This document shows positions 1-46,645 of a stretch of DNA of 49,530 nucleotides, one piece after another. Each line of letters begins with the position of its first letter. Positions within the stretch are counted from its first letter, which is position 1. The DNA is taken from the NCBI GenBank assembly GCA_902778325.1, contig CACYWZ010000012.1, positions 1 to 49,530 of the forward strand, given 5' to 3'. The position numbers and the translations under genes are program-made. This DNA comes from an uncultured Spirochaetaceae bacterium (GTDB lineage: Bacteria; Spirochaetota; Spirochaetia; Treponematales; Treponemataceae). Below the pieces are notes generated by a model that saw only the letters and a list, made by a program, of their open reading frames with translations, searched no databases and was not told the origin of the DNA.

Positions 1-8
1 AAAAAATT

Positions 9-265
9 TGGGAAACGCCGTCGGGAAGTCGGAACGGGCTTTCCATAATAGTGGAAACGCCGCCAGTGAGTCGGAACGCCCTTTCCATAATCGTGGAAAC
101 GCCGTCGGGAAGTCGGAATGCCCTTTCCACAACTGTGGAAACGCCGCCAGGAAGTCGGAATGCCCTTTCCATAAATGTGGAAACGCCGCCAGTGACTCGG
201 AATGTGCTTTCCATAAACGTGGAAACGTCGCCAGTGACTCGGAACGCCCTTTCCACAATCGTGGA
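9..265. repeat. Array A: 42-bp palindromic tandem repeat
   Basis: Units start at 9, 51, 93, 135, 177, 219 and 261, exactly 42 bp apart. Each has a GGAAACGCCG block and an imperfect palindrome of the type TTTCCACAACTGTGGAAA (8-bp arms, 2-bp centre); other copies carry changes in the arms. The last unit starts GTGGA and runs straight into the stop codon of the neighbouring minus-strand gene (266-268). The left edge is near the window end, so the true length is unknown. Because 42 is a multiple of 3, false open frames with 14-residue repeats cross it. Confidence 0.9.
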
Positions 266-910
266 TTATTCGCCGTCTATTTCGATGGCGGGTTCTGAAA
301 ATTGTTCCCAGCCGACAGAAGCGGCTTTCTTGTCTAATTCGAGTGATTTTTCAATGTCTATTTCCCGTCCAAGCCCTTCGCGGTACATGGTCGAGAGATT
401 TCGGAAGGCGTCCTCGATGTTTTCTTCTGCTGCCTCGCTGAAAAGCGAAAACGCCATGTCATAATCTTTTTCGACTCCCCAGCCGTTCAAATAGCACTTT
501 CCAAGATTGTTTTTCGCAAGAACGCTGCCCGCGCAGATGGCACTTTCGTAATATGAGACGGCGATTTCCAAGTCCTGCTCGCCTCCGATTCCGTTTTCAT
601 AAAGAAGTCCGAGCCAGTTGAGGGCTTCTGCATAGTTTTGCGCCTTTGAAAACCAAGCGCGCGCCTTTTTGAAGTCTCTTTTCACGCCCAAGCCTTGAAG
701 ATACATCAAACCAAGATTGTACGCGCTCTCAACGACGCCAAATGAAGCGGCTTTCTCGAAATATTTTCTTGCAGCCTTGTAATCCTCGGAATAATAGTAC
801 GAAGCGCCTTGGCTGTGCAGTTCTTCGGGGGCTACACGGTTGTTGTCGCACGAGAAAAAGCAAGGAATGAGCAAAAACAAAGCAGAGATGAGAATAAAAG
901 TGTGTTTCAT
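266..910 (-). CDS. Sel1-repeat (TPR-like) lipoprotein
   Basis: This 214-residue protein starts with a short charged end, a hydrophobic stretch and a Cys at about residue 21 (context CFFSC), a relaxed spirochaete-type lipobox, so it is probably lipid-anchored in the periplasm or outer membrane. At least four Sel1-like repeats follow (motifs such as AYNLGLMYLQGLGV and NNLGKCYLNGWGV), which in this family form a solenoid for protein contacts. The start has an AAGGAT ribosome site. It is the last gene of a three-gene minus-strand group, 22 bases after the gene at 933. The partner and exact role cannot be read from sequence. Confidence 0.8.
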   Translation of the reverse strand: MKHTFILISALFLLIPCFFSCDNNRVAPEELHSQGASYYYSEDYKAARKYFEKAASFGVVESAYNLGLMYLQGLGVKRDFKKARAWFSKAQNYAEALNWLGLLYENGIGGEQDLEIAVSYYESAICAGSVLAKNNLGKCYLNGWGVEKDYDMAFSLFSEAAEENIEDAFRNLSTMYREGLGREIDIEKSLELDKKAASVGWEQFSEPAIEIDGE

Positions 911-932
911 AGAATAATCCTTAGTTTATAAA

Positions 933-1559
933 TTATTTTTGTTTTCCGATTTTGAGGCTTAAAGAGAAAATGCCTTCTTCAAAGCCGTTTCCGGACGAAA
1001 GTGCGGCGACTGGAATGTAGACGCGAAAGTCCGCGCCAAGAACAACAGACGCCAAAACGCGATTGTAAGAGAAGGCGATGTCTGGATAAAAATAATTGAG
1101 GTCGCGCCAAAAATAGCGGTTGATTTCTTTCACGTCATCGCCCTCGTCTTTGACACCGTTCGCTTTCAAGCCGTAACGCGCCAAGATTCCAAGTCCGCCT
1201 CCGATTTCAAGCCACTGTTTTTCGTCCTTGCAGCAAATCCAGACGGGATTCAGCGTCGGCAAAGCGCAAAGAGCGAGCACCGTGCGGTTTTCAACTTCTG
1301 CGGGCTTTGCTTTTTCGTCGTCGAAAAGATAATACTGCGTGAAAAACGATGAGTGTGCTTCAAGCGCGATGTTTTCAGAAAGAAGAAATGTTCGCCCGAT
1401 GCCGAGCGAAGGCGAAACAGGAGAAGGAGCGCTGACCGAGTCTGTCGTGAGCATTAACTGCGGTCCAAGCGTTATGAATGTGGCTTGTTGAGCGTGTGCA
1501 AAAGCCGAAAAAGCAAGGAGCGCACACGCTACTTTCAAAACCGTCAAAAAGTTTTTCAA
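933..1559 (-). CDS. Exported protein, possible outer-membrane beta-barrel
   Basis: I do not recognise the family. The 208-residue product has a clear Sec signal peptide ending AFAHA-Q at about residue 23. The rest alternates short hydrophobic and polar stretches with aromatic residues (for example SFFTQYYLF and NYFYPDIAFSYNRV), which fits a small beta-barrel but does not prove it. The start overlaps the upstream lipoprotein stop by four bases (ATGA), so the two are translationally coupled and probably work in the same envelope process. Confidence 0.55.
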   Translation of the reverse strand: MKNFLTVLKVACALLAFSAFAHAQQATFITLGPQLMLTTDSVSAPSPVSPSLGIGRTFLLSENIALEAHSSFFTQYYLFDDEKAKPAEVENRTVLALCALPTLNPVWICCKDEKQWLEIGGGLGILARYGLKANGVKDEGDDVKEINRYFWRDLNYFYPDIAFSYNRVLASVVLGADFRVYIPVAALSSGNGFEEGIFSLSLKIGKQK

Positions 1560-2746
1560 TTCTTAAAAAGAACCTTTTCCAAATCAACAGCAAGGAAGCC
1601 GCTTCTGCCAGTACGATAGAAATCAGCCTCTTCCCATGCCACATAAAGATTTGTGCCGCTAAGCGCAAAATCAGAATACACATAGCCTTCCGGAAGTTTT
1701 GGAAGTCTGAATGCAACAGCCTTCTCACGTCCGATAATGTGCTTTCCAAACAGTGCGCCAGAAAGATAAGTCGTGCCGTCTTGGAAAATAGCCATCGAAT
1801 ATGTGTCGCCCAAAAGCGCTGTTCCTCCAAAACCGTCGTCAGTCGCTCCGTGCGCGTAAGTCACAGGAGAAAAGCCGCTAGTATGGTAGCAAACGATGTG
1901 ATAGCCAAAATCATCAGGGATTACTTGCAAAAGATTTCTGAGGCGCTCAGGAGAAAGCGAGAAATCAACAGGAAGTTTTGTGCTTCTGAAATCATCTTCC
2001 TCTGCTTCTGAAATCGCAATCAAGTTGTTGTTTTTTGCAGGAGCAAGTTCTGAAATGTCCCCGCTCGGAGTCCATTTTATGTAATCAAAAATCACACGCT
2101 CTTCGCCCTGAGTCTTCACAGCACAAACCCATTCGACGCCGTTCCACGTGAAATCCGTAATCTGTGCGTTTTTGTCGAGCATCAAGTTCTGATACGACAC
2201 AATCGGAATGCACATTCCAGAAGCGCGGTCGTACTTGACAAGGAACGGCTCTGAAGAAGATGCGTCATTCTTGTTGAAGAAGATGTTCTTGTACATCGAG
2301 AAAATCGGTGTATCGCCAAAGAAAACAAGATTACCGGCACTAGAATTAGAAAATACCGCTGGGTCTTTGATAAGTTTTGGCTCTGCGCCATCAAAAACAA
2401 GCATTCCGAGTCTGTTCACCGTCGCATAAGCAGGAGGAACAAGCGCTTCTTGCATGCTTCCCGGCTTTCCCTCAACAGGCTTGACCGAACTTCCCGTGCT
2501 TGAAATGCGAATGGCTTCAGTCCAAGGGCGAAATAACTGAGAAGGCGCATTCTGCGGCAAATCGACCGCTTCCATGCCCTGCTGCGTAAACGCGTACCAA
2601 GTGTGAGTTTCTGGCGCAAGTTTTTTCTCGATTGTTACAGGAAGAGAAGACTCTGTTTCTGCCTGTGTTTCCGTTTTTTTGCCGCACCCTGAAAAAAGAG
2701 CGAGCGTTGATAAAATAGCAACTGTAGTAAAAGCAATGTTTTTCAT
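1556..2746 (-). CDS. Lipoprotein of unknown function
   Basis: This is a 396-residue protein with a signal peptide and lipobox (ALFSGCGKK, Cys near residue 21). The body contains several short blocks with W, G, D and Y spaced as in beta-propeller or WD-like folds (such as ITDFTWNGVEWVCAV), suggesting a periplasmic propeller, but no family is recognised. It heads the three-gene group with the downstream exported protein (four-base overlap) and the Sel1 lipoprotein. No Shine-Dalgarno sequence is obvious; an AT-rich TATAAA lies 11 bases before the start. Confidence 0.6.
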   Translation of the reverse strand: MKNIAFTTVAILSTLALFSGCGKKTETQAETESSLPVTIEKKLAPETHTWYAFTQQGMEAVDLPQNAPSQLFRPWTEAIRISSTGSSVKPVEGKPGSMQEALVPPAYATVNRLGMLVFDGAEPKLIKDPAVFSNSSAGNLVFFGDTPIFSMYKNIFFNKNDASSSEPFLVKYDRASGMCIPIVSYQNLMLDKNAQITDFTWNGVEWVCAVKTQGEERVIFDYIKWTPSGDISELAPAKNNNLIAISEAEEDDFRSTKLPVDFSLSPERLRNLLQVIPDDFGYHIVCYHTSGFSPVTYAHGATDDGFGGTALLGDTYSMAIFQDGTTYLSGALFGKHIIGREKAVAFRLPKLPEGYVYSDFALSGTNLYVAWEEADFYRTGRSGFLAVDLEKVLFKN

Positions 2747-2789
2747 TGTACTTTTAGTTTATAACGGACTTATCACTTTTTGCAAGCAC

Positions 2790-3245
2790 TTAAAGGCTTC
2801 TCGCCGCAATTTCTTTTTGACAAAGCGAGTCGCAGATTTCGTTATACTCAACGCCGGCGTGTCCTTTGACCCAAGTCCACTCAACGCTGAGCGATTCGTT
2901 AAGCGCATCGAGCTCGCGCCACAAATCCTGATTCAGAACAGGCTTTTTGTTTGCTGTTTTCCAGCCCTTCACCTTCCAGTTTTTAATCCATTGCGTAATG
3001 CCGTTTTTGACATACTGACTGTCGATAAAGACTTTGATGCCACAACCCGAATAATTCGCCTTTGCATACGAAAGCGCCTGAATTGCAGCCGTAAGCTCCA
3101 TTCTGTTGTTCGTCGTCATGTCCTCGCCGCCAGAAAGCTCGCTCGCCTTGCCGTCAGCGATAACGACCGCTCCCCAACCGCCAGGTCCTGGGTTTCCGTG
3201 GCAACCGCCGTCTGTGTAAATCGTTATAATCTTGTCATTTTCCAT
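2790..3245 (-). CDS. rnhA: Ribonuclease HI
   Basis: Cleaves the RNA strand of RNA-DNA hybrids (primer and R-loop removal) in the cytoplasm. The 151-residue length is normal for the family. All four catalytic acids are visible: D12 in YTDGGCHGNPGPGGWG, E50 in NNRMEL, D75 in FIDSQYV and D139 in EICDSL. A longer frame starts at 3308, but the ATG at 3245 has a good ribosome site (GGGAG, 9 bases of mostly T) and starts just before the conserved core, so I chose it. It lies 81 bases after the leucine-rich-repeat gene on the same strand. Confidence 0.93.
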   Translation of the reverse strand: MENDKIITIYTDGGCHGNPGPGGWGAVVIADGKASELSGGEDMTTNNRMELTAAIQALSYAKANYSGCGIKVFIDSQYVKNGITQWIKNWKVKGWKTANKKPVLNQDLWRELDALNESLSVEWTWVKGHAGVEYNEICDSLCQKEIAARSL

Positions 3246-3326
3246 AAAAAAGAACTCCCGAAAAAATATTTGCAAAAATATATCACACCAGTTTTTTCTG
3301 CACAACACGCCCGCCCTCTTTTCGCC

Positions 3327-4667
3327 TCAAAGCTCTGCAACGCCGTCAGTGCATTGAACAATTTTGCAAGGAACGCCTTTGTTATAAGACAAACTGCGCT
3401 CAACAGCGTTTTTCCACCGAGAAAGCGTGTTGCCGAACGTGATTTTTTCAAGATGGACGCAATCACAAAAAACTTCGACTCCAATGTAGCCGACACTCTT
3501 TCCGATGTGAAAGGATTTCAGCGCGCTGCACTGAGAAAAAGCGCCGTCACCCAACTCAATAATCGAATCGCACAATTTCACCTCACAAAGCGCGGTGCAG
3601 CCTTCAAAAGCATCTTTGTCCAAACTTTTCACGCCCTCTTCGATTTCAACTCTCGAAAGCAAAGTACAGAGCCTGAACGCTTGCCTCTCAACTTTTTCAA
3701 CGGACGAGGGGATTTTGACCGCCGTGAGTTTTTCTGCTTTCAAAAACGCGCTTTCCCCGATTTTCTTTAGCGTTTCAGGAAAGTCGACAAGCGAAAGATT
3801 TTTGCAATGCGCAAATGCACCAGAGCCAATTGATTCAAGAAGAGGCGGAAGTTCGATTTTTCTGAGTTCAGGGCATTGGTCAAAAGCCAAAAATCCAATT
3901 TTTCGGACGGTTTTCGGAATATCAATCGACTCAAGAAGCGAGCAATCTTTGAAAAGCCTTGGCGCAATTTCGTCCAGAGCGACAGGCAACCGCACTTTTT
4001 TTAGTGCCGTATCTTCAAAGGCGCTAACTCCAATTGTTCTCACACTGTCAGGAAGCTCCGCGCTTGTCAAAGCATCGCATGTTTCAAACGCGTAAGAGCC
4101 GATTTCTTCAAGTCCGTCAGGAAAATCGACTTTTGCAAGGTGATGACAGTGCAAAAAGGCATTCATTCCTATTTTCTTGATTTGTGAGCCGCTTTCAAAT
4201 CTCACGGCCTGCACTTGGCAAAAGTAAAACGCACCATCATGGATTTCGCGCACTGTTCTGGGGATTTCCAAAAAAAGCGCAGGATTTTGGCAGTGCTTCA
4301 AGACGGTTTTGTCTTTGTTGAAGCTCAAATAGCACTTTCCGCCCGTCTCAAGCCCAAGCTCAGCCGCTTTTTCTCTGACTGCCGAAACATCGATTTTTCC
4401 GCCAGCAACGACAGAGAGCAATTCAGGAAGTTTTTTTGTCCAACTTGAAACTGCGCTTTTTTTGAGATTGACTTCAATGCCGTCTGACCAGCTTTGAAAA
4501 AACGCGATTGAGATGTATTTTTCAATTTCGATGACACAAGTGCCATAATCGGCTCTTTGGTAGCTCAAGCCCGCGTTCTCCATCGCGACTTTCACAACGG
4601 CTTTTGAAGTCGCGTCATAGACTTGGGCTTTTTTTTGTCGTTTTGCTTTTTCCTTTTCGCTTTGCAT
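3327..4667 (-). CDS. Leucine-rich-repeat (BspA-like LRR_5) protein
   Basis: This 446-residue protein has about 60 charged N-terminal residues, then roughly twelve repeats of about 23 residues with the LRR_5 pattern (IGxxAFxxCxxLxxVxxPxxLxxI), for example IGSYAFETCDALTSAELP. BspA-like repeats are abundant in host-associated treponemes and usually mediate binding, but this copy has no signal peptide or membrane segment and begins MQSEKEKAKRQKKAQ, so it may be cytoplasmic. There is no ribosome site; a TATAAT box ends eight bases before the ATG, suggesting a leaderless mRNA. Confidence 0.85.
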   Translation of the reverse strand: MQSEKEKAKRQKKAQVYDATSKAVVKVAMENAGLSYQRADYGTCVIEIEKYISIAFFQSWSDGIEVNLKKSAVSSWTKKLPELLSVVAGGKIDVSAVREKAAELGLETGGKCYLSFNKDKTVLKHCQNPALFLEIPRTVREIHDGAFYFCQVQAVRFESGSQIKKIGMNAFLHCHHLAKVDFPDGLEEIGSYAFETCDALTSAELPDSVRTIGVSAFEDTALKKVRLPVALDEIAPRLFKDCSLLESIDIPKTVRKIGFLAFDQCPELRKIELPPLLESIGSGAFAHCKNLSLVDFPETLKKIGESAFLKAEKLTAVKIPSSVEKVERQAFRLCTLLSRVEIEEGVKSLDKDAFEGCTALCEVKLCDSIIELGDGAFSQCSALKSFHIGKSVGYIGVEVFCDCVHLEKITFGNTLSRWKNAVERSLSYNKGVPCKIVQCTDGVAEL

Positions 4668-4681
4668 ATTTTTAGATTATA
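4668..4681 (-). promoter_or_regulatory. Candidate leaderless promoter (-10 box) of LRR gene
   Basis: TATAAT read on the minus strand occupies 4676-4681, eight bases before the ATG at 4667, with no Shine-Dalgarno sequence between. Transcription would begin at or next to the start codon. No convincing -35 is seen at 16-18 bp. Confidence 0.45.
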
Positions 4682-4753
4682 GCGGACGTCAAAAAAAATC
4701 GCACTCAAAAAAACGCTCCTTTTTTGACTGTTTGTCATTGGCGCAAAAGCAGA

Positions 4754-4772
4754 TGCTGAATCAAGTTCAGCA
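4754..4772. repeat. TGCTGAA-TCAAG-TTCAGCA inverted repeat
   Basis: Seven-base perfect arms around a five-base centre, embedded in AGATGCTGAATCAAGTTCAG followed by CATGAC. The same word, whose reverse strand reads as HAELDSAS in a spurious frame, is familiar as a dispersed palindromic repeat in many unrelated bacterial genomes. It is separate from array B, which begins 46 bp further on. Confidence 0.6.
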
Positions 4773-4817
4773 TGACAGCACTTTCCAAAACACATCCTTT
4801 TTTTTTGTAAAATCTCC

Positions 4818-5003
4818 CGCTGGAGTGAATTTTGCCTTTCAAACATTTGTTAAAAGCTTCGCTGGAGTGAATTTCGTGCTTTAAACATTTGTTTAAAACC
4901 TCGCTGGAGTGAATTTCGTGCTTTAAACATTTGTTAAAAGCCTCGCTGGAGTGAATTTCGCCTTTTAAACATTTGTTTAAAGCCTCGCTGGCTCGCAGTC
5001 TTA
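4818..5003. repeat. Array B: 42-bp palindromic tandem repeat
   Basis: Units start (CGCTGG) at 4818, 4860, 4902, 4944 and 4986, all exactly 42 bp apart; the fifth is cut short. The palindrome in the best copies is TTTAAACATTTGTTTAAA (8-bp arms, 2-bp centre). The array sits in the divergent gap between the LRR gene and the MoxR operon (4668-5148). From 5004 to 5148 I see only AT-rich sequence that should hold the Bat operon promoter. Confidence 0.9.
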
Positions 5004-5148
5004 AAACTAACATTTGTTATCTTTAACACAATTGTTACAGCGATGAAACGACAGTTAAAAATATGTCATCTGAATAACTTTTATCCTTTGTAATCCAAAA
5101 AAGAGCCGAGAAAACAGCGGGTTATTTACGAGAGAGGATATTTTTTGT

Positions 5149-6192
5149 ATGATAGACCAAATCGCATTGAAAAAACGGGAGAGTTTTTTTATGGAAAATA
5201 CAAGTCAGGAGATTTTGCATTCGGATTTGGAAGAATGCAAAAATCTTATAGCGCAATGCCGAGCCGAAGTCGCAAAGCGAATTGTCGGGCAATCAGAAAT
5301 CACAGACGGCGTTTTGATGGCGCTAATCACAGGCGGACACGTTCTTCTTGAGGGTGTTCCGGGACTTGCAAAAACACTCGCAGTAAAGACATTCGCAGAG
5401 ATTTCAGGGCTTTCGTTCAAGCGTGTCCAGTTCACGCCTGATTTGCTTCCGGCAGATATTTCAGGAACGCTCATTTACGAGCAGTCAAGCGGTCAGTTCA
5501 CGGTGAGAAAAGGTCCTGTTTTTGCAAATATCGTGCTTGCCGACGAAATCAACCGAGCGCCAGCAAAGGTGCAGTCAGCGCTTCTTGAGGCGATGGCGGA
5601 GGAGCAGGTTACAATCGGCGAAAAATCATACGCGCTTCCAAAGCCTTTTTTTGTGCTTGCAACACAAAACCCGATTGAGCAAGAGGGAACTTATGGGCTT
5701 CCAGAGGCGGAGCTTGACCGCTTCTTGCTGAAAGTGCATGTCCCGTACCCGACGCCTTCAGAAGAGCTCAACATCGTCAGAGCGGAAGGAAGGAGCGCGG
5801 CTTATCCTGTGAATCAGGTTTTCAGCGCAGAAAATCTTGCAAAATGTCGCGCTGTCTTGGACGCAATCGTCTGCTCAGAGAAAATCATTGAATACATCGT
5901 GTCGGTCGTTCGTGTAACGCGCCCTCTTGACGATGAGGCTGCAAACAAGAAATCTGATATTGCAAGATATATTTCTTTTGGCGCTTCTCCTCGCGCGGGC
6001 ATCGCTCTTGTGCGCTGTGCAAAGGCAAAGGCGCTTTTCGCAGGTCGCTCGTTCGTGCTTCCGGAGGACGTGAAATCCGTTGCGCATTCTGTTTTGCGCC
6101 ATCGACTCGTTCTTTCTTACGAAGCGGCAGCGGACGGTGTTGACGCTGACACTCTCATTTCGCGCATTCTTTCTTTGATGCCTGTTCCGTGA
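5149..6192 (+). CDS. MoxR-family AAA+ ATPase
   Basis: AAA+ chaperone-like ATPase that in this family acts with von Willebrand A (vWA) proteins encoded beside it, usually to mature or insert partner proteins. Walker A GVPGLAKT is at residues 69-76, Walker B IVLADE at about 128-133, and sensor region ATQNPIEQEGTYGLPEAELD follows. First gene of the Bat operon, 14 bases before the DUF58 gene. Two starts are plausible: ATG 5149 (AGAGG 11 bases before) and ATG 5191 (GGGAGAG then seven Ts). The second looks the better ribosome site, and the first 14 residues are not needed by the domain, so the start is uncertain. Confidence 0.93.
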   Translation: MIDQIALKKRESFFMENTSQEILHSDLEECKNLIAQCRAEVAKRIVGQSEITDGVLMALITGGHVLLEGVPGLAKTLAVKTFAEISGLSFKRVQFTPDLLPADISGTLIYEQSSGQFTVRKGPVFANIVLADEINRAPAKVQSALLEAMAEEQVTIGEKSYALPKPFFVLATQNPIEQEGTYGLPEAELDRFLLKVHVPYPTPSEELNIVRAEGRSAAYPVNQVFSAENLAKCRAVLDAIVCSEKIIEYIVSVVRVTRPLDDEAANKKSDIARYISFGASPRAGIALVRCAKAKALFAGRSFVLPEDVKSVAHSVLRHRLVLSYEAAADGVDADTLISRILSLMPVP

Positions 6193-6206
6193 GCGAGGGC
6201 GCTTGA

Positions 6207-12141: not shown

Positions 12142-12285
12142 GCTTTTTCTACGTAGAATTGACGGATTTTGACTGATTTTGCTCATTTCGTACGTAGAAA
12201 TGACGGACTTTGACTGATTTTGCTCATTTCTACGTAGAAATAACTGACTTCGCCTGTTTTCTGCCAATTCTACGCGAAAATGGGG
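12142..12285. repeat. Array C: 40-41-bp palindromic tandem repeat
   Basis: TACGTAGAA-type words start at 12150, 12191, 12231 and 12271, steps of 41, 40 and 40 bp. The best palindrome is ATTTCTACGTAGAAAT, a perfect 16-mer; the fourth copy is degraded (TACGCGAAAA). It fills most of the gap between batD and the Smr gene (12092-12402). Between 12092 and 12141 a weak ACTG/CAGT stem followed by Ts might end the Bat operon. Confidence 0.85.
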
Positions 12286-18114: not shown

Positions 18115-18771
18115 ATGGATTCAACAAAAAAAGCAGTTGTTTTTTTGTCAGAAGGCTTCGAGGAAGTCGAAGCGCTCACGCCTGTCGATTACTTGAGACG
18201 AGCGGGCTGCACGGTCATCACGGTCGCAGTTCCGCCTGCAAAAACAGTAAATCACCCATGCTCTATTGACGACATGCCAAGCTACGGGCACATCGTCGTC
18301 TCGTCGCACTGCATTCCTGTCATCGCAGACAAGACGATTGACGAGTTTCTCGCCGACGAAAAAGAACTTGCAGACCTCGTTTTCCTTCCAGGCGGAATGC
18401 CAGGTTCAACAAACCTTGCAGCCTCTAAAGAAGTTTGCGATTACGTTTTGAAGATGAACGAAAAGGGAAAAATCGTCAGCGCAATTTGCGCCGCTCCCGT
18501 CGTCGTTCTTGGAAAACTCGGGCTTCTCAAAGGGAAAAAATACACCTGCTACACGGGAATGGAAAACGACGCGCAAAAGTTCTGCGGAGAGAACTACAAG
18601 GCGCTTTTTGAAGGCTCAGTCCACACAGGAGAAGTTCCTGCCGTAAAAAGCGGCAACATCATCACAGGAAAAGGAGCGGGCGCGGCAGCCCACTTTGCAC
18701 TTGCGCTTGTTGAAGCCCTATTCGGAGAAGACGCGAAGAAAAAACTCCACGAGAGAGTCTGCCAGTTCTGA
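18115..18771 (+). CDS. DJ-1/PfpI family protein (YajL/ThiJ-like)
   Basis: This 218-residue protein has the family's two active-site marks: E17 in GFEEVEALTPVDYLRRAG and the nucleophile C125 in SAICAAPVVLG-like context (ICAAP). LPGGMPGSTNL and TGKGAGAAAHFALALVE are also typical. Members are cysteine-dependent glyoxalase, deglycase or chaperone-type stress proteins. It is about 30 residues longer than usual, with an insertion at about 42-68 (NHPCSIDDMPSYGHIVVSS). A strong AAGGAG site precedes the start. It stands alone; array D begins at its stop codon. Confidence 0.9.
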   Translation: MDSTKKAVVFLSEGFEEVEALTPVDYLRRAGCTVITVAVPPAKTVNHPCSIDDMPSYGHIVVSSHCIPVIADKTIDEFLADEKELADLVFLPGGMPGSTNLAASKEVCDYVLKMNEKGKIVSAICAAPVVVLGKLGLLKGKKYTCYTGMENDAQKFCGENYKALFEGSVHTGEVPAVKSGNIITGKGAGAAAHFALALVEALFGEDAKKKLHERVCQF

Positions 18772-19085
18772 TTCCGAAACCGGAATTGAGCAAAACACGC
18801 TCGCGTAACGCATTCCGAAACTGGAAAATGACATTTCACCCTTGTTTTGTCATTTTCCGAAATCGGAATTGCCCAAAACACGTTGCAGCAGTCAATTCCG
18901 AAACTGGAATTGGCAAAAACATGCTTGCAATGAGCAATTCCGAAATCATAATTCGCCAAAACATGCTCGCGTGACCAATTCCGAAATCATAATTCACAAA
19001 AACAGGCCTGCGTCAGTCAATTATGAAATCATAATTCACAAAAACAGGCTCGCGTGGACAATTATGAAATCATAATTCACAAAAA
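18771..19085. repeat. Array D: 41/42-bp palindromic tandem repeat
   Basis: Eight units begin at 18771, 18812, 18854, 18895, 18937, 18978, 19020 and 19061, steps strictly alternating 41, 42, 41, 42, 41, 42, 41. Early copies carry AATTCCGAAATCGGAATT-type palindromes, the last two AATTATGAAATCATAATT; copies at 18937 and 18978 are hybrids (left arm old, right arm new). Between units two and three a further inverted repeat, GGAAAATGACA/TGTCATTTTCC, fills the spacer. The first unit touches the DJ-1 stop codon; the array fills the convergent gap up to the anti-sigma gene. Confidence 0.92.
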
Positions 19086-27272: not shown

Positions 27273-27415
27273 AAAACGCACTTAATGACTCGCCAAGAAA
27301 AAAAGGAGGCCGTTAAGTGCACTTAATTGCTCGCCAGAAAAAAAAGGAAGCCGTTAAGTGCACTTAATTGCTCGCCAGAAAAAAAAGGAAGGCGTTAAGT
27401 GCACTTAATGAGTCG
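27273..27415. repeat. Array E: 41-bp palindromic tandem repeat
   Basis: GCACTTAAT words start at 27278, 27319, 27360 and 27401, all exactly 41 bp apart. The palindrome is TTAAGTGCACTTAA, perfect and without a loop; spacers hold TGCTCGCCAG and an A-run. It sits in the 27135-27604 divergent gap between the DUF5312 gene and the barrel gene. From 27416 to 27604 the sequence is AT-rich, with a TTGCC-TTTT-GGCAA hairpin at 27514-27527 and a GGAGG ribosome site for the barrel gene. Confidence 0.9.
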
Positions 27416-36563: not shown

Positions 36564-36823
36564 GTCATGGTGACACGGCTTGCTTTTGATGAAAATCTGC
36601 CTTCGTCAAAATGACACGAGCCGACTTTGCTGAAAAACACCGCTTGTCAAAATGACGCGAGTCGCTTTCTTCTCAAAACAATGCTTGTCATGGTGACACG
36701 AGGTGCTTTGAGTCAAAGACAGTGAATGTCAAAATGACGCGCGCAGATTTTTGAAAAAGTGGGTCAATGTCATTTTGACACAGCTTCTCAAGAGCCAAAA
36801 AGCGTGTCATTTTCAAAATTGAC
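36564..36823. repeat. Array F: 41-bp palindromic tandem repeat
   Basis: GTCA-x3-TGAC palindromes are centred at 36569, 36610, 36651, 36692, 36733 and 36774, each 41 bp apart, plus GTCATTTTCAAAATTGAC centred at about 36814.5. Copies read GTCAAAATGAC, GTCATGGTGAC or, inverted, GTCATTTTGAC. The last lies five bases before the stop codon of the pseudouridine synthase gene. The array fills the gap 36498-36827. Confidence 0.9.
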
Positions 36824-39307: not shown

Positions 39308-39311
39308 AAAA

Positions 39312-39848: not shown

Positions 39849-39855
39849 ATATTTC

Positions 39856-39927: not shown

Positions 39928-39945
39928 ATTTAACAAAAAACTATT

Positions 39946-40728
39946 TTATAGCTCCTTTTTCAGTATCGACAAGAAAACTTCGTTGAGCTTTTCCCACGTC
40001 AAAGAGTTTTCTCTCTTGTAGCTTTGAAGATAGGCTTGGGAATCAAGGATTTTCGTTTGCACAAAATAATCAATGTCTTCGGCTCTGTGTCCCTTTGCCT
40101 TTTCGTCAGCGGATTTCTTCGCTTCAAGAATCCGCTCAACAGACGGCATTAGCTCACTCGGCAAGCAATTTTCTGCAAGCTCTGAGAACTTCATCGGTGG
40201 CGGACACTTGTGCTGCATAATCCACTCAAGAGCAAGGGCGGGGCGCAGTATATATAGATACTTTTTTAAGATAATGTCATCAGAGCAAAAATAATTTCGC
40301 ACGTTGTTTTTCAACATCGAAAGATAATGATACATAGATTTATCTAGCTGAAAATATTCGCTTAAAATCGCTTTGACTTTCTCCCAATCCTCGCTCGTGC
40401 GGTAGACAATGGGAGATGCTGCCCATTCAAAAATCGTCGGATTGGACTTCATCAACAACCGCAAGAGCTTTTGTATGTCCCAGCCGTTGATGTCGTAAAC
40501 TTCATTTAATTCAGCTTCGATAACATCGCGCTTTTCTTCAAGCCTTAAATAATCTTGCGCATTTCTGACATAGACAAAGCGAACATCATAATCGCTGTCT
40601 TCGCTCTCAAAGCCCCATGCCCTAGAACCGCTTTCGCAAGCATAGATTATGCGCACGTTCTCCTTTTGCTCGATGTCGGAGAGCTTTTGCTTTATGCTTT
40701 CAATGATTTCGATTTTCGTGGGTCTCAT
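39946..40728 (-). CDS. DNA polymerase beta-type nucleotidyltransferase (RlaP/YcgL-like)
   Basis: A 260-residue protein with the core nucleotidyltransferase motif GSRAWGFESEDSDYDVRFVYV: GS, then the metal-binding DxD. The layout matches COG3541/PF10127 proteins, some of which belong to RNA-repair clusters; no RNA ligase or repair partner is seen here, so the substrate is unknown. It has a strong GGAGGG ribosome site and lies directly after an intrinsic terminator at the edge of array G. Confidence 0.82.
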   Translation of the reverse strand: MRPTKIEIIESIKQKLSDIEQKENVRIIYACESGSRAWGFESEDSDYDVRFVYVRNAQDYLRLEEKRDVIEAELNEVYDINGWDIQKLLRLLMKSNPTIFEWAASPIVYRTSEDWEKVKAILSEYFQLDKSMYHYLSMLKNNVRNYFCSDDIILKKYLYILRPALALEWIMQHKCPPPMKFSELAENCLPSELMPSVERILEAKKSADEKAKGHRAEDIDYFVQTKILDSQAYLQSYKRENSLTWEKLNEVFLSILKKEL

Positions 40729-40740
40729 TTTCTTCCCTCC

Positions 40741-40779
40741 AAAAAAATAAGACTGATTTCCAAACGGAAAAATCAGTCT
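40741..40779 (-). terminator. Intrinsic terminator forming the last unit of array G
   Basis: AGACTGATTT (40750-40759) pairs with AAATCAGTCT (40770-40779). On the minus strand the stem is followed by TATTTTTTT. Its loop holds the array G palindrome core (TTTCC-AAAC-GGAAA), so the array end doubles as the terminator of the ArsR-type gene. Confidence 0.8.
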
Positions 40780-40974
40780 AACTCATTTTTTAGCCTTTTC
40801 CAGACGGAAATGCACTCCCTAACGCGTTTTTTAGCCTTTTCCCGACGGAAATGCATTCCCCCACGTGTTTTTTAGTCTTTTCCCGACGGAAATGCACTCC
40901 CCAACGCGTTTTTTAGTCTTTTCCCGACGGAAATGCACTCCCCAATGCGTTTTTGACCTTTTTCCGTCTAGAAA
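40757..40974. repeat. Array G: 41-bp palindromic tandem repeat
   Basis: CGGAAA words (or equivalents) start at 40765, 40805, 40846, 40887, 40928 and 40969, steps of 40, 41, 41, 41 and 41. The palindrome core is TTTCC-x4-GGAAA. The last copy, TTTCCGTCTAGAAA, contains the stop codon of the ArsR-type gene (40968-40970), so the array reaches into the coding end. Confidence 0.9.
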
Positions 40975-41900
40975 TAGATTTGCATGATGATGCCTTGGTC
41001 GTAGTTACCAAAGCCTTTGCCGAAGATATTTAATCCGCCCATATAGCGCGCGTCGTCTTTCACGCCTACTTTTACGCGGATTGAGTGGTGATTTCGCATA
41101 TCGAGGTCAGCAAGGGTTACGTCGGAAACTTTCACGCCGTCGATGTAGCTGCCTTCGTTTGTAACAGAAAAATGCTTCAAAAGTCCGTACTGACTGCCTT
41201 CGAGCTTCCACCATTCTGGTGTGAACTTTCCGCGATGATCGCCATAATCGCCAGGGCATGTCCATGTTGCAATTTCGGTTTTGTTAATCCAAATCGTGAT
41301 GTCGCTAGGCCAGTTTGTGTTTGTTCCTGGCGTTTCGCTCGAAAGCTCCATCATCAATTCTAGCTTTGTAACTTCTCGCGGGTCAGAAAGCGTGTTGTTT
41401 GGGAACTTGTATTCAAAATAGCCCGATGTACACCACAAAAGACCTGCTTTCATACGCTCAGGATTGAGGAATGAATCGGGTAAATCCAACATACCGATGA
41501 TTTTTTCCCTCGAGCAAAGACCGCATGGAGCTGTTACAGAATAATCTGTGAAAAGACCAAGTGGCATTTCAATGCGCACAAAGTTCTTTTCTACATTCTC
41601 ATCTTCTGGGAATTTTATAAGGATTTCATTAAAGGCAGGTGAGCAAATCTTCTGATTTCCCTTCTTTGCCTTTGCTGATTCGCTAACAATCAAGCCCGCT
41701 TCTTCCAAAATAGAAGCATTTGTAGCAACCGTGCTTTGTGGCTGCCCCATAGCCTCTGCTATTTCGTTGATATTGAGCTTTTTGTGCCTGAGAAGCTCAA
41801 GCATTTTTACTCTCGGCTCGCTTGCTAGTGCTTTTATCACGTTCAAATCCTTTAAAGGATTCACAATTAATGTCTGTTCAGTTTCATTTGAGATTGTCAT
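40968..41900 (-). CDS. ArsR-type transcription regulator with C-terminal ligand domain
   Basis: A 310-residue regulator. Residues about 15-95 form a winged helix (LASEPRVKMLELLRHKKLN, then NEIAEAMGQPQSTVATNASI and LEEAGLI). The remaining 215 residues are a large beta-rich domain of unrecognised family (FTDYSVTAPCGLC, WINKTEIATWTCPGDYGDHR) that may bind a sugar. It is divergent from the arabino-oligosaccharide import and hydrolase operon and probably controls it. ATG 41900 is preferred to GTG 41903; a good promoter ends nine bases before it and there is no ribosome site. Confidence 0.83.
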   Translation of the reverse strand: MTISNETEQTLIVNPLKDLNVIKALASEPRVKMLELLRHKKLNINEIAEAMGQPQSTVATNASILEEAGLIVSESAKAKKGNQKICSPAFNEILIKFPEDENVEKNFVRIEMPLGLFTDYSVTAPCGLCSREKIIGMLDLPDSFLNPERMKAGLLWCTSGYFEYKFPNNTLSDPREVTKLELMMELSSETPGTNTNWPSDITIWINKTEIATWTCPGDYGDHRGKFTPEWWKLEGSQYGLLKHFSVTNEGSYIDGVKVSDVTLADLDMRNHHSIRVKVGVKDDARYMGGLNIFGKGFGNYDQGIIMQIYF

Positions 41901-41909
41901 CACTTATTC

Positions 41910-41938
41910 ACTATACCCAACATTTTCGATATTATCAA
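41910..41938 (-). promoter_or_regulatory. Leaderless promoter of the ArsR-type regulator
   Basis: Minus-strand TTGATA (41933-41938), exactly 17 bases, then TATAGT (41910-41915), nine bases before the ATG. Transcription would start within a few bases of the initiation codon. Confidence 0.65.
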
Positions 41939-42117
41939 GAACAAATTTTTATTTATCACAAAAATATTCGGATAAGTGCGAAAACACTATGCTTATCGGA
42001 CTGCTAAAACCTTTTGCCATATCAAAAACTTTGAGAACTAATCATATAAAACTCAAAAAAATAATGTTGTTTATCCGTTTCTAGTCAAATTTTATAGTTA
42101 AATATCGAAATTTATTG

Positions 42118-42154
42118 TTGACAAAGAAAAAAAAGAGCGACACAATAACATTGT
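42118..42154 (+). promoter_or_regulatory. Candidate promoter and operator of arabinan operon
   Basis: TTGACA (42118-42123) is followed after 17-18 bases by CACAAT/ACAATA. The inverted repeat ACAAT-AAC-ATTGT (42142-42154) covers this -10 region and could be a regulator site. A second inverted repeat, GATAAG/CTTATC, lies at about 41972-41998. The transcript would have a leader of about 45 bases with an AGGAGG site. Confidence 0.45.
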
Positions 42155-42195
42155 AATACCCCTTTTTATTACCAAGTTTTTTTAGGAGGACAAAG

Positions 42196-43560
42196 ATGAA
42201 GAAAAGTTTACTTTCAGCAGTCTTTTGTTGTGTCGGTGCCGTAGCGGGCTTGATGAGCCTTCAGAGTTGTGGCAAAAAAGAAAGCGAGAACAAAATCACA
42301 TTGATGATTTTCGCTCAGCCTCAGGAAAAAGAAATTCTCGACCAGATTGTCTGGAGATTCGAGAATGCGCATCCGGGAACAAAAGTCAATTTCATTTCAT
42401 CAACTCAGGCCGAATATGGTCAGAAACTTCAGGCTCAGCTTGCAGCAAACCAGCTTCCTGATGTTTTCTATCTCGGACCTGGAGATGTAAGACAGTACGT
42501 TGACAACAAAAAGGTTTTGGACCTTGCTCCTTATGTTCAGAATGTCACAGGCGTAGATTTCAACGACCTCTATGAAAGCGCTGTTGATACATATCGCTAT
42601 GACGGAAACACTCTCGGACAGGGTGCTGCAATTTGGGCTTTGCCAAAGGATTTTGGTCCATTTGCTTTTGCATACAACAAGGATATGTTCAAAGAAGCTG
42701 GCATTCCGCTTCCTTCAACAGAAAAGCCATATAACTGGCAGGAATTCATGGATGTTTGCGAAAAACTCACTCGCGACACAGACGGAGACGGTGAAATCGA
42801 CAAGTTCGGAACAGGCTTGAACCCACGCTGGGCTTTGATTCAGTTCATCTGGGGAAACGGTGCTGACTTCATCGACTCAACACACACAAAGGTTACTATC
42901 ACAGACCCGAAATTTGTTGAAGCATTGCAGTTCTGGGCAAACATGACTGTCGGTGGAACAACAATCGCAGGCAAGACTTACGCTCCTGTAACTCCAAGCG
43001 CTGCTCAGTCACAGAGCCTCGACACTTACCAGAGATGGCTCAAAGGCGACCTCGGATTCTTCCCAGCAGGACCTTGGGATTTGGCTGCATTCAACAAGAC
43101 TCTCGCATTTGAGTATGACCTCATTCCATGGCCAGTTCACACAGATGCAAACCAGACTGCAACTTATCGCGGTGGCGTTGGATACGCTGTTGCGGCAAAC
43201 TCAAAGAAACCTCAGCTTGCAGCAGAACTTGCTCTCTACTTGTCAGCGGATAAAGAAGCAAACCAGATGTACTGCGACCTCGACTTGCAGATTCCGAACT
43301 TGAAGTCTTTGGCAGATCGCTACAAGGCAAAGGGAAAGCCGGAGAACCGCGCAGAGTTCTTGAACATCATTTCAAAGACAGGACGCGCTTGGCCATCTGA
43401 TTTCACATACACAGGCGACTGGTTCGAAGAGTTCTTCGTCAGCGTTCAGAAGGTTGTTGACGGTGATATGAGCGCTGCTGATTACTGCGCTGAAATCGAG
43501 CCAAAAATGCAGGACAAACTTGAAAAAGGTCTTGCCAAAGCCCGCAAAAACGCAAAATAA
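42196..43560 (+). CDS. ABC importer solute-binding lipoprotein (family 1)
   Basis: A 454-residue sugar-binding lipoprotein. The signal peptide ends in a lipobox (SLQSCGKKE, Cys near residue 25). The mature part has the family 1 pattern ITLMIFAQPQEKEILDQIVW, then LAANQLPDVFYLGPGD and FGPFAFAYNKDMFKEAGIP. It captures oligosaccharides, most likely arabino-oligosaccharides given the GH43 and GH51 genes that follow. A strong hairpin separates it from the permease genes and probably raises its level relative to them. Ribosome site AGGAGG. Confidence 0.95.
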   Translation: MKKSLLSAVFCCVGAVAGLMSLQSCGKKESENKITLMIFAQPQEKEILDQIVWRFENAHPGTKVNFISSTQAEYGQKLQAQLAANQLPDVFYLGPGDVRQYVDNKKVLDLAPYVQNVTGVDFNDLYESAVDTYRYDGNTLGQGAAIWALPKDFGPFAFAYNKDMFKEAGIPLPSTEKPYNWQEFMDVCEKLTRDTDGDGEIDKFGTGLNPRWALIQFIWGNGADFIDSTHTKVTITDPKFVEALQFWANMTVGGTTIAGKTYAPVTPSAAQSQSLDTYQRWLKGDLGFFPAGPWDLAAFNKTLAFEYDLIPWPVHTDANQTATYRGGVGYAVAANSKKPQLAAELALYLSADKEANQMYCDLDLQIPNLKSLADRYKAKGKPENRAEFLNIISKTGRAWPSDFTYTGDWFEEFFVSVQKVVDGDMSAADYCAEIEPKMQDKLEKGLAKARKNAK

Positions 43561-43586
43561 ACTTTAGCGCTTTTTGAAAAGAAAAC

Positions 43587-43626
43587 CATGTGATTACCAG
43601 TTTGAGCAAAACTCGGTAATCACATG
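43587..43626 (+). promoter_or_regulatory. Strong hairpin between binding protein and permease genes
   Basis: CATGTGATTACC (43587-43598) is perfectly complementary to GGTAATCACATG (43615-43626). No T-run follows, so it is more likely an RNA-processing or stability element protecting the binding-protein message than a simple terminator. Confidence 0.8.
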
Positions 43627-43649
43627 CTTGAAACAACAGGGAGATTATA

Positions 43650-44606
43650 ATGGCAAAATCAGACAAAACAACTTTGAAAGCAAAGAGCAAGTGGGACGAA
43701 GAAGCAAAAATGGGGCTTCTTTTTGTATTGCCACCAATTTTTGGATTTTTGCTTTTCACTGCAATTCCATTCATTTTTTCGATTTATGCCAGTTTCACAA
43801 ACTGGGATTCAATGACCGACTTGACATCGCTTTTTTCAATGAGCGATGCTGAAAAAGAATACTTTTACGCCGGTTTTCAAAACTACAAAGAACTTTTCTC
43901 TGACAGCGACTTCTGGAAAGCGCTGTGGAACACATTTTTCTATATGATTGGCATTCCAATCGGTATGCTTTGGGCAATTTCTCTCGCGGTATCATTCAAC
44001 AAGCCAATTCGAGGCGCAAAGATTTTCCGCGTGATTTACTATATTCCTGTCGTCAGTTCAATCGTTGCTGTTTCGCTGTTGTGGAAATGGCTTTACAACG
44101 GTGATTTCGGTTTGATAAATCAGTTTTTGAATTGGGCATTCGGCATAAAAGGACCGAACTGGCTCGAAAATCCGTCAACAGTAAAGCCGTCAATTATGGC
44201 GATGACAATCTGGCGCGGAGTTGGAGGAACAGCACTTTTGTATCTTGGCGGCTTGCAGAACCTTCCAACATCTTATTACGAAGCAGCAGTTCTTGACGGC
44301 GCTTCAAACTGGAGAATATTCCGTTCGATAACATTGCCGCTCTTGAAGCCTATTTCGTTCTTCATTGTGGTAACAGGCATTATCGGAGGTGCGCAGATGA
44401 TTGTCGAGCCGCAGATTATGGCTCCTGCTGGCGGTACAGATTACAGCGCAGGAACAATCGTATTCTACATCTGGCAGCGCGCTTTCGGCTCAGCAGACGC
44501 AAAAGGCTACGCATGTGCGGCGGCTTGGGTTTTGGCGATTATCATCTTCATCGTTACAGCCTTGCAGTTCAAGCTCAGCAAAGAAAACGACAATTATCTT
44601 GAATAG
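43650..44606 (+). CDS. ABC sugar permease, MalF/UgpA type
   Basis: A 318-residue inner-membrane protein with six predicted spans. The first is at about 25-50 (LLFVLPPIFGFLLFTAIPFI), and the ATPase-docking EAA loop is EAAVLDGASNWRIFRSITLP. It forms the import channel with the next gene product. It follows the hairpin with a GGGAG site and lies 11 bases before its partner. No ATPase gene is in the operon, so a shared MsmK/UgpC-type ATPase elsewhere is probably used. Confidence 0.94.
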   Translation: MAKSDKTTLKAKSKWDEEAKMGLLFVLPPIFGFLLFTAIPFIFSIYASFTNWDSMTDLTSLFSMSDAEKEYFYAGFQNYKELFSDSDFWKALWNTFFYMIGIPIGMLWAISLAVSFNKPIRGAKIFRVIYYIPVVSSIVAVSLLWKWLYNGDFGLINQFLNWAFGIKGPNWLENPSTVKPSIMAMTIWRGVGGTALLYLGGLQNLPTSYYEAAVLDGASNWRIFRSITLPLLKPISFFIVVTGIIGGAQMIVEPQIMAPAGGTDYSAGTIVFYIWQRAFGSADAKGYACAAAWVLAIIIFIVTALQFKLSKENDNYLE

Positions 44607-44617
44607 GAGAAAAGCAA

Positions 44618-45505
44618 ATGGTTGAAGATTTACCAGCAAAAAGAAGCACATTCCGCTTGAGCAAGACTGCATTAAAAAAGATAGACATCAGCGCAACATA
44701 CGCATTCTTGATTTTGGGAAGCGTGCTGATGATTATTCCTCTCGTATGGATGCTTTTCTCTGCTCTCAAAACACCAGCGCAGTTTTTGACAACGCAGCTT
44801 TCTCTCAAAATGCCAGAAAACCCGCAGTGGACAAACTTCACAAAGCGCGTTTGGGAAATGAAGCCAAGCATTCAGCTTGGTATCCGAAACTCAGTAATCA
44901 TCTCGTTCACAACAATCATCGTCGGAACTTTTGTTTCATCGCTTGCCGCATTCAGCTATGCAAAAATGCGCTTTCCCGGAAAAAACAAAGTCTTTCTCGC
45001 AGAGCTTGCGACAATGATGATTCCGTTCGCAGTCATAATGATTCCGCAGTTCATTATGTATGCGCGCATCGGCTGGCTCAACACATGGCTTCCACTCATA
45101 ATTCCGGGAATGCTCGGAAACGTCAGCATGATATTCTTCTTGAAGCAGTACATCGGCGGCATTCCGACCTCGATGGTTGAAAGCGCGCGCATTGACGGAG
45201 CGGGCTACTTCCGCATTTACTGGCAGATTATCATGCCGAACGCAAAACCTGCTGTTGCGGCTCAGGCAATCTTGTGGTTCATGGGCGCGTGGAACGACTT
45301 CTTTGCGCCAAGCATTTACCTCAACGAGCCGACAAAGCAGACTTTGCAAGTTATGATTAGCCAGCTCAACGCGATGTACGCAATCCAGACGGACTACCCT
45401 CTCCTTCTCACAGCGTCGCTTATCGCGCTTTTGCCAGTGTTAATCGTCTTCATGGTCTTCCAGAAGCAGATTATCGCATCTGTTGCAATGACAGGACTGA
45501 AATAA
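44618..45505 (+). CDS. ABC sugar permease, MalG/UgpE type
   Basis: A 295-residue partner permease with six spans and the EAA-loop equivalent MVESARIDGAGYFRIYWQII. The N-terminal span is at about 25-48 (YAFLILGSVLMIIPLVWML). It shares one base with the first GH43 gene (TAATG), which ties transport to intracellular hydrolysis. Confidence 0.94.
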   Translation: MVEDLPAKRSTFRLSKTALKKIDISATYAFLILGSVLMIIPLVWMLFSALKTPAQFLTTQLSLKMPENPQWTNFTKRVWEMKPSIQLGIRNSVIISFTTIIVGTFVSSLAAFSYAKMRFPGKNKVFLAELATMMIPFAVIMIPQFIMYARIGWLNTWLPLIIPGMLGNVSMIFFLKQYIGGIPTSMVESARIDGAGYFRIYWQIIMPNAKPAVAAQAILWFMGAWNDFFAPSIYLNEPTKQTLQVMISQLNAMYAIQTDYPLLLTASLIALLPVLIVFMVFQKQIIASVAMTGLK

Positions 45506-46404
45506 TGAAACTCGAACTGACAGGCGAAACAAGAACGCACGACCCGACTATCGTGAAAGAAAACGGAGTCTATTATCGCTTTCAGACAGGCGAAGGGCTT
45601 CCAATCCACAAGTCAGCCGATTTGCGCCATTGGGAAAAATGCTCGAGTGTGTTCACAGCCACTCCAGATTGGACAAGCCGCGCAATTCCTGGCTCATCGC
45701 TGCATTTTTGGGCGCCTGAAATCGTAAAGAGAAACGGCGAATGGCGTGTTTACTATTCCGTCAGCACATTCGGAAGCCAGAAAAGCGCCATCGGTCTTGC
45801 CGTCACCCCGACGCTCAATCCCGAAAGCCCGGACTATTGCTGGAAAGACTTGGGAAGCGTCTTGCAGTCGGACGAGACTTGCAGATACAACGCGATTGAC
45901 CCGTGCGTCGTATGCGAGAACGGTGAAGATTATTTGCTGTTCGGCTCATTTTGGGGAGGACTTTTCCTCACAAAACTCACCACGCAGGGCTTCGTCGCAA
46001 AAGACAGCGAAGTAAAAAACGTCGCAACAAGGCAACTTGCAAAAGACAACGCAATCGAAGGCGGCTTTTTGCTCCACAAAGGCGACTTTTGGTATCTTTT
46101 TGCCTCGTTCGATTTTTGCTGCCGCGGAACTGCGAGCACGTACAAAATCGTTTACGGGCGAAGCAAGTCGCTTTCAGGCGATTTCGTCGACAAATCAGGA
46201 AAACCGATGACACAAGGCGGAGGAACGCTTCTCCGTGACGGCTCTTCGTTCTCGCGCTGGGCGGGAACAGGGCACAACAGCGTGCTTGAGGACGACGGGA
46301 AATACTACCTCGTCTATCACGCATACGACAGAGAGAAAAACGGCGAAAGCCATCTGCAAATCGAAGAATTCACCTTCGATTCGGACGGTTGGATTGTCTT
46401 TTGA
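45505..46404 (+). CDS. GH43 glycosidase, arabinanase/arabinofuranosidase-like
   Basis: A 299-residue five-bladed-propeller enzyme. Expected GH43 catalytic residues are visible: base D13 in THDPTIV, pKa modulator D132 in NAIDPCVV, and acid E185 in NAIEGGFLL; a metal-site-like GTGHNSVL follows. The motif order resembles endo-alpha-1,5-L-arabinanases. There is no signal peptide, so it acts on imported oligosaccharides in the cytoplasm. Array H begins about a dozen bases after its stop. Confidence 0.9.
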   Translation: MKLELTGETRTHDPTIVKENGVYYRFQTGEGLPIHKSADLRHWEKCSSVFTATPDWTSRAIPGSSLHFWAPEIVKRNGEWRVYYSVSTFGSQKSAIGLAVTPTLNPESPDYCWKDLGSVLQSDETCRYNAIDPCVVCENGEDYLLFGSFWGGLFLTKLTTQGFVAKDSEVKNVATRQLAKDNAIEGGFLLHKGDFWYLFASFDFCCRGTASTYKIVYGRSKSLSGDFVDKSGKPMTQGGGTLLRDGSSFSRWAGTGHNSVLEDDGKYYLVYHAYDREKNGESHLQIEEFTFDSDGWIVF

Positions 46405-46411
46405 GACTGCA

Positions 46412-46645
46412 ACGGCGTTTCTGATTAGAAATTGGTTGATGCAACACTGCGCGAGTCAATTTCTGATTCGAAATTGCTTACTGCAAAGTGAAGAAGTCAA
46501 TTTCTGATTAGAAATTGGTTGATGCAACACTGCGGCAGTCAATTTCTGATTAGAAATTGGCTCATGCAACACTGCGGCGGTCAATTTCTGGTTAGAAATT
46601 GGTTAATGCAAAGTGAAGAAGGCAATTTTTGATTAGAAATTGGCT
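46412..46645. repeat. Array H: 41/42-bp palindromic tandem repeat
   Basis: CTGATT words start at 46421, 46463, 46504, 46546, 46588 and 46629 (last as TTGATT), steps 42, 41, 42, 42 and 41. The palindrome is CAATTTCTGATTAGAAATTG. Spacers alternate between two types, ATGCAACACTGCG and TGCAAAGTGAAGAAG. It lies between the two GH43 genes within one probable operon, so it would be transcribed. The following gene has a GAGAGG site. Confidence 0.92.

Follow-up and report, generated by a model that had tools for sequence, protein, structure and literature searches.

Palindromic tandem arrays with a common 41–42 bp unit dispersed in the genome of an uncultured Spirochaetaceae bacterium

We have analyzed the eight palindromic tandem arrays of a 49,530 bp contig from an uncultured Spirochaetaceae bacterium (GenBank CACYWZ010000012.1; contig C12, taken whole and called the window below) and found that they belong to a large population of arrays dispersed over the draft genome of this microbe (G000; 3,354,252 bases, 173 contigs, completeness 94.3%). 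The arrays fall into many sequence families without clear kinship, and across these families the unit is mostly 41 or 42 bp long. Dispersed tandem palindromic elements as such are already known; the new part is this common unit length. Bacterial dispersed repeats are usually defined by their sequence and are often linked to one transposase, whereas here it is the length of the unit that is the common property.

A common unit length across the genome

The sample of this genome comprised the window and 40 other stretches (41 in total, 848,397 bp, about 25% of the genome), picked by contig and not at random. Tandem Repeats Finder (TRF, score cut-off 60) gave 137 clusters in this sample and only three (periods 20, 24 and 27) in a first-order Markov copy of it. 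The smallest period was 41 in 53 clusters, 42 in 27, 40 in two, 43 in one and 82–84 in five, and the rest had periods of 21 (20 clusters), 22 (3), 23 (11), 24 (3) or other values (twelve). By class, we counted 90 arrays at 40–43 bp (the 41-class), 23 at 20–22 bp and 10 at 23 bp; the 90 include multiples of the basic period and may hold a few coding repeats (e.g., L216 18929–19030; L-numbers are sampled stretches and G-numbers genomes), and the 23 include one array of the 41/83 kind (L022 14365). Neither a broad spread of periods nor a single consensus, the results that the initial annotation had named as refuting, was obtained; the 21 and 23 bp periods are an addition to its picture.

The spacing inside the arrays is equally narrow. 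Using a 14-base anchor and at least 35 bp between matches, 388 of the 463 steps in 41-class arrays were 41 or 42 bp and 419 were 40–43 bp. Without the 35-bp limit the figure was 331 out of 424, and another 38 steps were 10–12 or 30–31 bp, mostly double matches inside one unit that sum to the unit length. The shorter classes were similar, with 98 of 128 steps at 21 bp in the 21-class and 26 of 28 at 23 bp in the 23-class. The 41-class adds up to 18,626 bp (2.2% of the sample), the median array length is 209 bp, and by proportion we infer about 350 arrays of this class in the whole genome. An array was found within 400 bp of the contig start in six of the 21 contig starts examined (window included), so that longer arrays may be missing from these counts.

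Many arrays have uniform steps of 41 and others uniform steps of 42. With 10.5 bp per turn, each step in an array of 41 only adds a drift of about 34 degrees, and no cluster in the sample had a period of 31–32 (three turns) or 52 (five turns). Given the lack of these periods, the presence of 23 and the rotation of 41-only arrays round the helix, helical phase alone is insufficient, and the strict phasing advanced in the initial annotation is not supported. Intrinsic curvature was rejected too, as the autocorrelation of A/T tracts inside units was without 10–11 bp phasing. As a separate observation, nine of the 20 period-21 clusters were concentrated in the first 20 kb of contigs C9 and C10 (L012 and L013), where palindromic arrays of 21 bp occur and several have a dyad every 10.5 bp; most other stretches hold 41/42-bp arrays.

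Families and kinship between arrays

BLAST single linkage assigned 94 of the 123 arrays to 20 multi-locus groups and left 29 as singletons, the largest group being one that may chain unlike arrays. Family members align over whole arrays (about 0.2 kb), with identities of 65–91% among the pairs listed and of up to 88–91% over 213–282 bp in the closest ones. This alignment along entire arrays indicates that they are copied as wholes. Homology between loci mostly stops at the array edges or no more than some tens of bp away from them.

Between families the picture is different. Thirty groups include an array of the 41-class; the 28 that had a consensus were compared, and the 378 pairs of their representatives had a mean score of 13.65, compared with 13.36 for shuffled units. 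Pairs above the 95, 99 and 99.9% lines numbered 26, 7 and 4, versus 19, 3 and 1 with shuffled units. One BLAST group includes 21- and 42-bp periods alike. We rejected as a general rule that 42 is a dimer of 21, since half-unit direct similarity was not found across the 28 groups (z of -1.1 and -0.7 at lags 20 and 21); second dyads about 20–20.5 bp apart were somewhat in excess across these groups, as they were at several other distances.

The eight arrays of the window

The arrays of the window (none of them assigned to a strand) are the following.

Array A, 9..265: 42-bp units with a TTTCC-N8-GGAAA palindrome, of a family found at many loci in the genome (TRF, autocorrelation, palindrome placement).
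Array B, 4818..5003: 42-bp units, TTTAAACATTTGTTTAAA (TRF, palindrome placement).
Array C, 12142..12285: steps of 40–41 bp, ATTTCTACGTAGAAAT; the gene gap is shorter in 22 of 22 congener loci with both neighbours aligned.
Array D, 18771..19085: eight palindromes with steps of 41, 42, 41, 42, 41, 42 and 41 (autocorrelation, palindrome placement).
Array E, 27273..27415: 41-bp units, TTAAGTGCACTTAA; the gap lies between divergent genes and is shorter in the 15 congeners with adjacent genes (in one only slightly).
Array F, 36564..36823: 41-bp steps, with GTCA-N3-TGAC retained and diverging spacers (TRF, autocorrelation, palindrome placement).
Array G, 40757..40974: steps of 40–41 bp, TTTCCCGACGGAAA, a singleton in the sample (TRF, BLAST grouping, palindrome placement).
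Array H, 46412..46645: steps of 42, 41, 42, 42 and 41, CAATTTCTGATTAGAAATTG, a member of the largest single-linkage group (14 sampled arrays).

All eight were recovered by TRF with a period of 41 or 42, and in the autocorrelation of each array region 41, 42 or multiples (81–84, 121–126) were among the top peaks. A mismatch search placed 36 palindrome-to-palindrome steps, of 40 bp (4), 41 bp (18) or 42 bp (14), with none beyond. The initial annotation had counted 39 steps, all of 40–42 bp, and this range is confirmed with a correction: the palindrome it gave for array D matches the right half only, which would turn two of the seven D steps into 49 and 34, and the steps of D were scored here with the variant AATTCCGAAACCGGAATT. 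Its other statement, that the arrays have no common sequence, is right among the eight, which belong to eight different BLAST groups, but it does not extend to the genome, as six of them (A, B, D, E, F and H) have relatives elsewhere in the sample; C and G are the singletons. The motif of array A, GCCAGTGACTCGGAA, occurs 91 times in this genome with up to one mismatch, and the array itself lies at the contig end and may be cut. Array B continues into a degenerate tail to about 5090 that is conserved among three loci, the tail common to family B being about 100 bp long. Along array D the arms shift from TTCC..GGAA to TTAT..ATAA via hybrid copies. At 18936–18994 these hybrids, AATTCCGAAATCATAATT, stand between TTCC..GGAA and AATTATGAAATCATAATT copies, as if an arm had been converted to match its partner.

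Anatomy and change of the unit

The palindromes are well above the level expected from composition, with inverted-repeat arm scores of at least 7 in 29% of units versus 3% when shuffled. Loops of the dyads are short, 0–4 in 84 of 92 units and 0–2 nt in 60 of them. Arm columns were 91.3% conserved and the remaining columns 86.0% (76 arrays; Wilcoxon p = 5e-5 over 23 families), and in a rotation control the arms were above the median in 18 of the 23 families. Neighbouring units had a mean identity of 0.77 (72 arrays). Three arrays of A-B-A-B type (L010, L012 and L226) have neighbours that are just 52–55% identical, with the spacing still at 41/42.

Unit length is apparently held while the sequence drifts. 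Among 854 pairs of units inside arrays the length difference was 0 in 551, 1 in 219 and larger in 84, and 78 of the 551 equal-length pairs needed compensating indels, compared with 3.9% in a substitution-only simulation. Change on both sides of the dyad was seen in 13 of 193 variable pairs inside single arrays.

Congeners, insertion and placement

By the MoxR-like protein, the nearest named records were an uncultured Spirochaetaceae metagenome-assembled genome and Treponema sp. UBA1798 (both 68%), and the closest congener had 76% identity. We scanned 80 stretches of 77 congeners (1,433,722 bp) with TRF and obtained 45 clusters, the sole one at 40–43 bp being inside an open reading frame. The same scan over 79 of the 80 GTDB loci around the MoxR-like gene (L026 omitted) gave no 41/42 period and one cluster at 43. 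Of 200 congeners, 15 had a single copy of motif A, a smaller number than had a reversed-pattern control (about 22), and a DNA search with up to three candidates scored per genome gave for arrays H and B just matches of 24–30 bases, in two and one other congeners respectively. These data fit an array class peculiar to this species among those sampled, a natural experiment in which one species has the trait and the sampled members of the genus are without it.

In two places of the window the arrays could be seen as additional DNA. The interval holding array C is 335 bp long, compared with -23 to 144 bp in 12 congeners where the alignment of the right gene began close to its start, and at most 54 bp in 10 further ones where it began later. 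For array E it is 521 bp, versus 109–274 bp in 14 congeners and 480 bp in G036, the two genes being apart in three more; in all these comparisons the anchor residues differ by some tens of bases from locus to locus. Because the gaps of the congeners are shorter, arrays C and E look like insertions.

Some congeners have arrays of other lengths, 22–23 or 33 bp (L373 5446–5560, L367 11482–11613, L378 17853–17928, L384 4493–4679, L386 2096–2217 and L206 343–570), with a near-identical 23-bp unit in L367 and L378 and a near-identical 33-bp unit in L384 and L386. A three-copy palindromic array of 80–81 bp without likeness between half-units was found in congener G036 (L145 12384–12624), and it was counted outside the class although periods of 82–84 were counted in for the genome of the window.

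Within this genome, and taking simple open reading frame picks as genes, 41-class arrays occupied 23 of 61 convergent, 35 of 174 co-directional and 19 of 82 divergent gaps of at least 60 bp. Units are seldom solitary; TRF arrays aside, they occur at 22 sites, of which 17 are under 80 bp. Among the 9-mers beside arrays we found no end module common to all families; the 40 that adjoin most families are nearly all A/T-rich words that are also present in other gaps. A small number occur more often beside arrays, such as CTTTTTTCA, at 11 arrays of nine families versus 3 of 217 other gaps. Sequence like GTCATGCTGAAC..GTTTCAGCATCT borders one array family on either side (L010 8380–8760, L228 1440–1900). 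REP-like TCATGC..AACTYGTT motifs had an array within 150 bp in six of 14 cases.

Comparison with known repeat systems

Intergenic minisatellites, or variable number tandem repeats (VNTRs), and long tandemly repeated sequences (LTRR) are tandem arrays of non-coding DNA in which units drift and higher-order repeats occur, features that the present arrays have as well, being head-to-tail tandem units outside genes by simple open reading frame calls. We know of no minisatellite, VNTR or LTRR set in which unrelated families of one genome have a common unit length. REPINs are repetitive extragenic palindromes (REPs) in pairs, with a REP-associated tyrosine transposase (RAYT). They are described in PMC8049555 as sequence populations multiplying within one genome, in which they resemble the present arrays, but they are not tandem 41/42-bp arrays. 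According to PMC2817692, bacterial interspersed mosaic elements (BIMEs) and REP arrays of enterobacteria, Pseudomonas and Xanthomonas are intergenic clusters of evenly spaced palindromic units found chromosome-wide, and, with PMC3733652, REP classes have GTAG/GTGG-type ends and RAYT transposases and BIMEs alternate in orientation. The likeness to our arrays lies in the dispersed intergenic clusters of spaced palindromes; unlike BIMEs, ours run head to tail, form many families without clear kinship and come from a genome in which no Y1 transposase was found. The BOX elements of Streptococcus pneumoniae are, according to PMC3049150, dispersed, with a variable number of tandem boxB modules, and nearly missing from most other streptococci. 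They are similar to our arrays in dispersal and in variable module number, and differ in that boxA and boxC form their ends and the modules are of one family, while the present arrays have about 28 unit families, for which no shared end modules were found. The part of PMC4060949 consulted, a survey of palindromes and close repeats, describes no such arrays, and a full-text search of the literature, outside which most subscription journals fall, gave no described case of unrelated arrays with a common 41/42-bp unit.

We have also looked for the machinery of known elements. The Y1 (IS200/IS605-like) transposase PF01797 had no match in this genome (94% complete, so a miss is possible), while 10 of the 30 genomes searched and five of 14 controls had one, and no reverse transcriptase was found in the genome; on these grounds REP-RAYT and retroelement origins were rejected. 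No GTAG/GTGG-type tag common to the units was seen on inspection of the unit consensuses, for which no pattern count was run. Clustered regularly interspaced short palindromic repeats were discarded because Cas1 (PF01867) had no match in the genome (nine of 14 controls had one) and because the spacers are repeated as well. A phage origin was rejected after four pattern scans of viral contigs, of which two were empty and one gave a single match. The fourth, with a 15-base pattern, matched 89 stretches, which we take as chance: a second copy is present in only two among the 80 listed, and neither pair is spaced 41–42.

Origin of the common unit length

Our first choice, which we adopt tentatively and which may well prove wrong, is selection on the spacing of bound dyads in lineage-specific dispersed minisatellites. 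The arrays would be minisatellite-like elements of intergenic DNA, dispersed in the genome and specific to the lineage. Each would have about five head-to-tail units and be copied from locus to locus as an entire array, and internally they would change by gain or loss of one, two or three units together, as the higher-order repeats of 82–84 and 123–126 bp suggest. The unit would consist of a short dyad (loop mostly 0–4) and a freer spacer. The dyads might be bound by a putative protein that tolerates or needs neighbours some four helical turns away, and selection would then remove arrays with drifting spacing. Several components of this proposal are directly observed: the dispersed families, the likeness along whole arrays, the extra DNA with respect to congeners at two loci, the one unit length across families, the arms more conserved than the spacers and the length kept through apparently compensating indels.

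Other data weigh against selection on bound dyads. With about 28 palindrome families, it would take either many proteins or a single one almost indifferent to sequence. Arrays that step by 41 only do not stay on one helical face. Covariation of the arms was not above slid controls (17 of 83 variable pairs versus 11–20 of 93–110; 15 families, 321 units). The test of arm conservation is mildly biased, as poorly conserved columns give noisier consensus palindromes; the unit pairs of the indel test are not independent, and equal-length units of mixed ancestry could mimic compensating indels. The small excess of high between-group scores indicates that some groups may be distant kin. Finally, everything comes from one genome of a single strain, a draft of 173 contigs.

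The alternatives differ in what would set the length. A sequence-independent ruler, by which a protein or a copying step sets units to 41–42 (and 21 or 23) bp and makes unrelated intergenic palindromes into spaced arrays that are dispersed afterwards, is possible but on the whole doubtful. The initial annotation had suggested that length is measured rather than a motif read. One length across families that score near shuffled units, the steps of 41 or 42 and the length kept as sequence changes agree with that suggestion, which did not include that most arrays belong to dispersed families. New arrays could also originate in a step of replication or repair with a fixed length of 41–42, 21 or 23 nt (slippage, template switching or rolling copy of a small single-stranded loop), aided by hairpins and without selected function, which seems to us rather unlikely. 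It would account for the common length of families without clear kinship, for the clustering of lengths at 21, 23 and 41/42 with few intermediates, for the excess of palindromes over shuffled units and for the arms of array D that change to match. Most arrays, however, are in multi-locus families and so are copies of existing arrays rather than fresh ones, the compensating indels suggest that length is maintained after origin, the genome search gave neither reverse transcriptase nor Y1 transposase, and to our knowledge no copying step of this length is known. Common descent of all 41/42-bp families from one ancestral array, with saturated sequence and the length inherited through copying of whole units, is improbable. 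The likeness of whole arrays between loci is real and would carry the unit length along, the 21- and 42-bp periods of one BLAST group could be read in this way, and so could the few excess pairs between groups, particularly above the 99.9% line. But the between-group mean near the shuffled value is a clear break from the identities within families, indels should have loosened the length at such divergence, and the lack of arrays in the sampled congeners leaves little time for saturation.

REP/BIME-like or miniature inverted-repeat transposable elements mobilised in trans by a known transposase would also be dispersed, mostly intergenic, palindromic and copied as whole elements, and REP-like motifs do lie close to some arrays; with no Y1/RAYT transposase found (in a genome 94% complete and a transposase search confined to Y1) and no end module common across families, we consider this quite improbable. 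A function at the RNA level, as transcribed hairpin arrays, terminators or repeats like type III antitoxins, is very improbable. Direct repeats in arrays of comparable size are found ahead of ToxN-type toxins, and the genome has a lone ToxN-like gene (L415 1489–2193, minus strand; 14 controls gave none), but no repeat array was found in the 285 bases upstream of it, up to the contig end, for which reason a type III antitoxin array was rejected; the ToxN-type model was absent among the NCBIfam matches listed for 20 window genes. Mismatches in the arms were GT:AC = 154:152 (15 families, 321 units), without GU bias, and 10:5 for the probable sense strand (p = 0.30, numbers too small for a decision). 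With neither GU bias nor excess covariation, selection on hairpins or RNA was rejected, and the selection for hairpins or cruciforms considered in the initial annotation is not supported by the covariation data. Loops of 0–2 nt in most units, the lack of Rfam matches in the window (only tRNA in seven array-rich stretches) and the presence of arrays in convergent, co-directional and divergent gaps alike point in the same direction. That the arrays are an artefact of assembly is scarcely credible: the genome is a draft and contigs often start near arrays, but substitutions and indels distinguish the copies, arrays occur far from the ends of contigs as long as 192 kb, arrays C and E are bordered by genes that congeners conserve, and true repeats cause such contig breaks.

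If the length is indeed set by a ruler, this would be a repeat system defined by length and not by sequence. The arrays raise the question of what in a bacterium can measure 41–42 bp and whether the spacing of dyads is selected, which would bear on how the unit lengths of minisatellites are set in general.

Two minor observations concern genes. A degenerate 41-bp array lies downstream of the ToxN-like gene (L415), and in the window a protein encoded at 3327–4667 on the minus strand is similar to a leucine-rich-repeat adhesin (HupY/LrrG), with a score far under the cut-off of that model.

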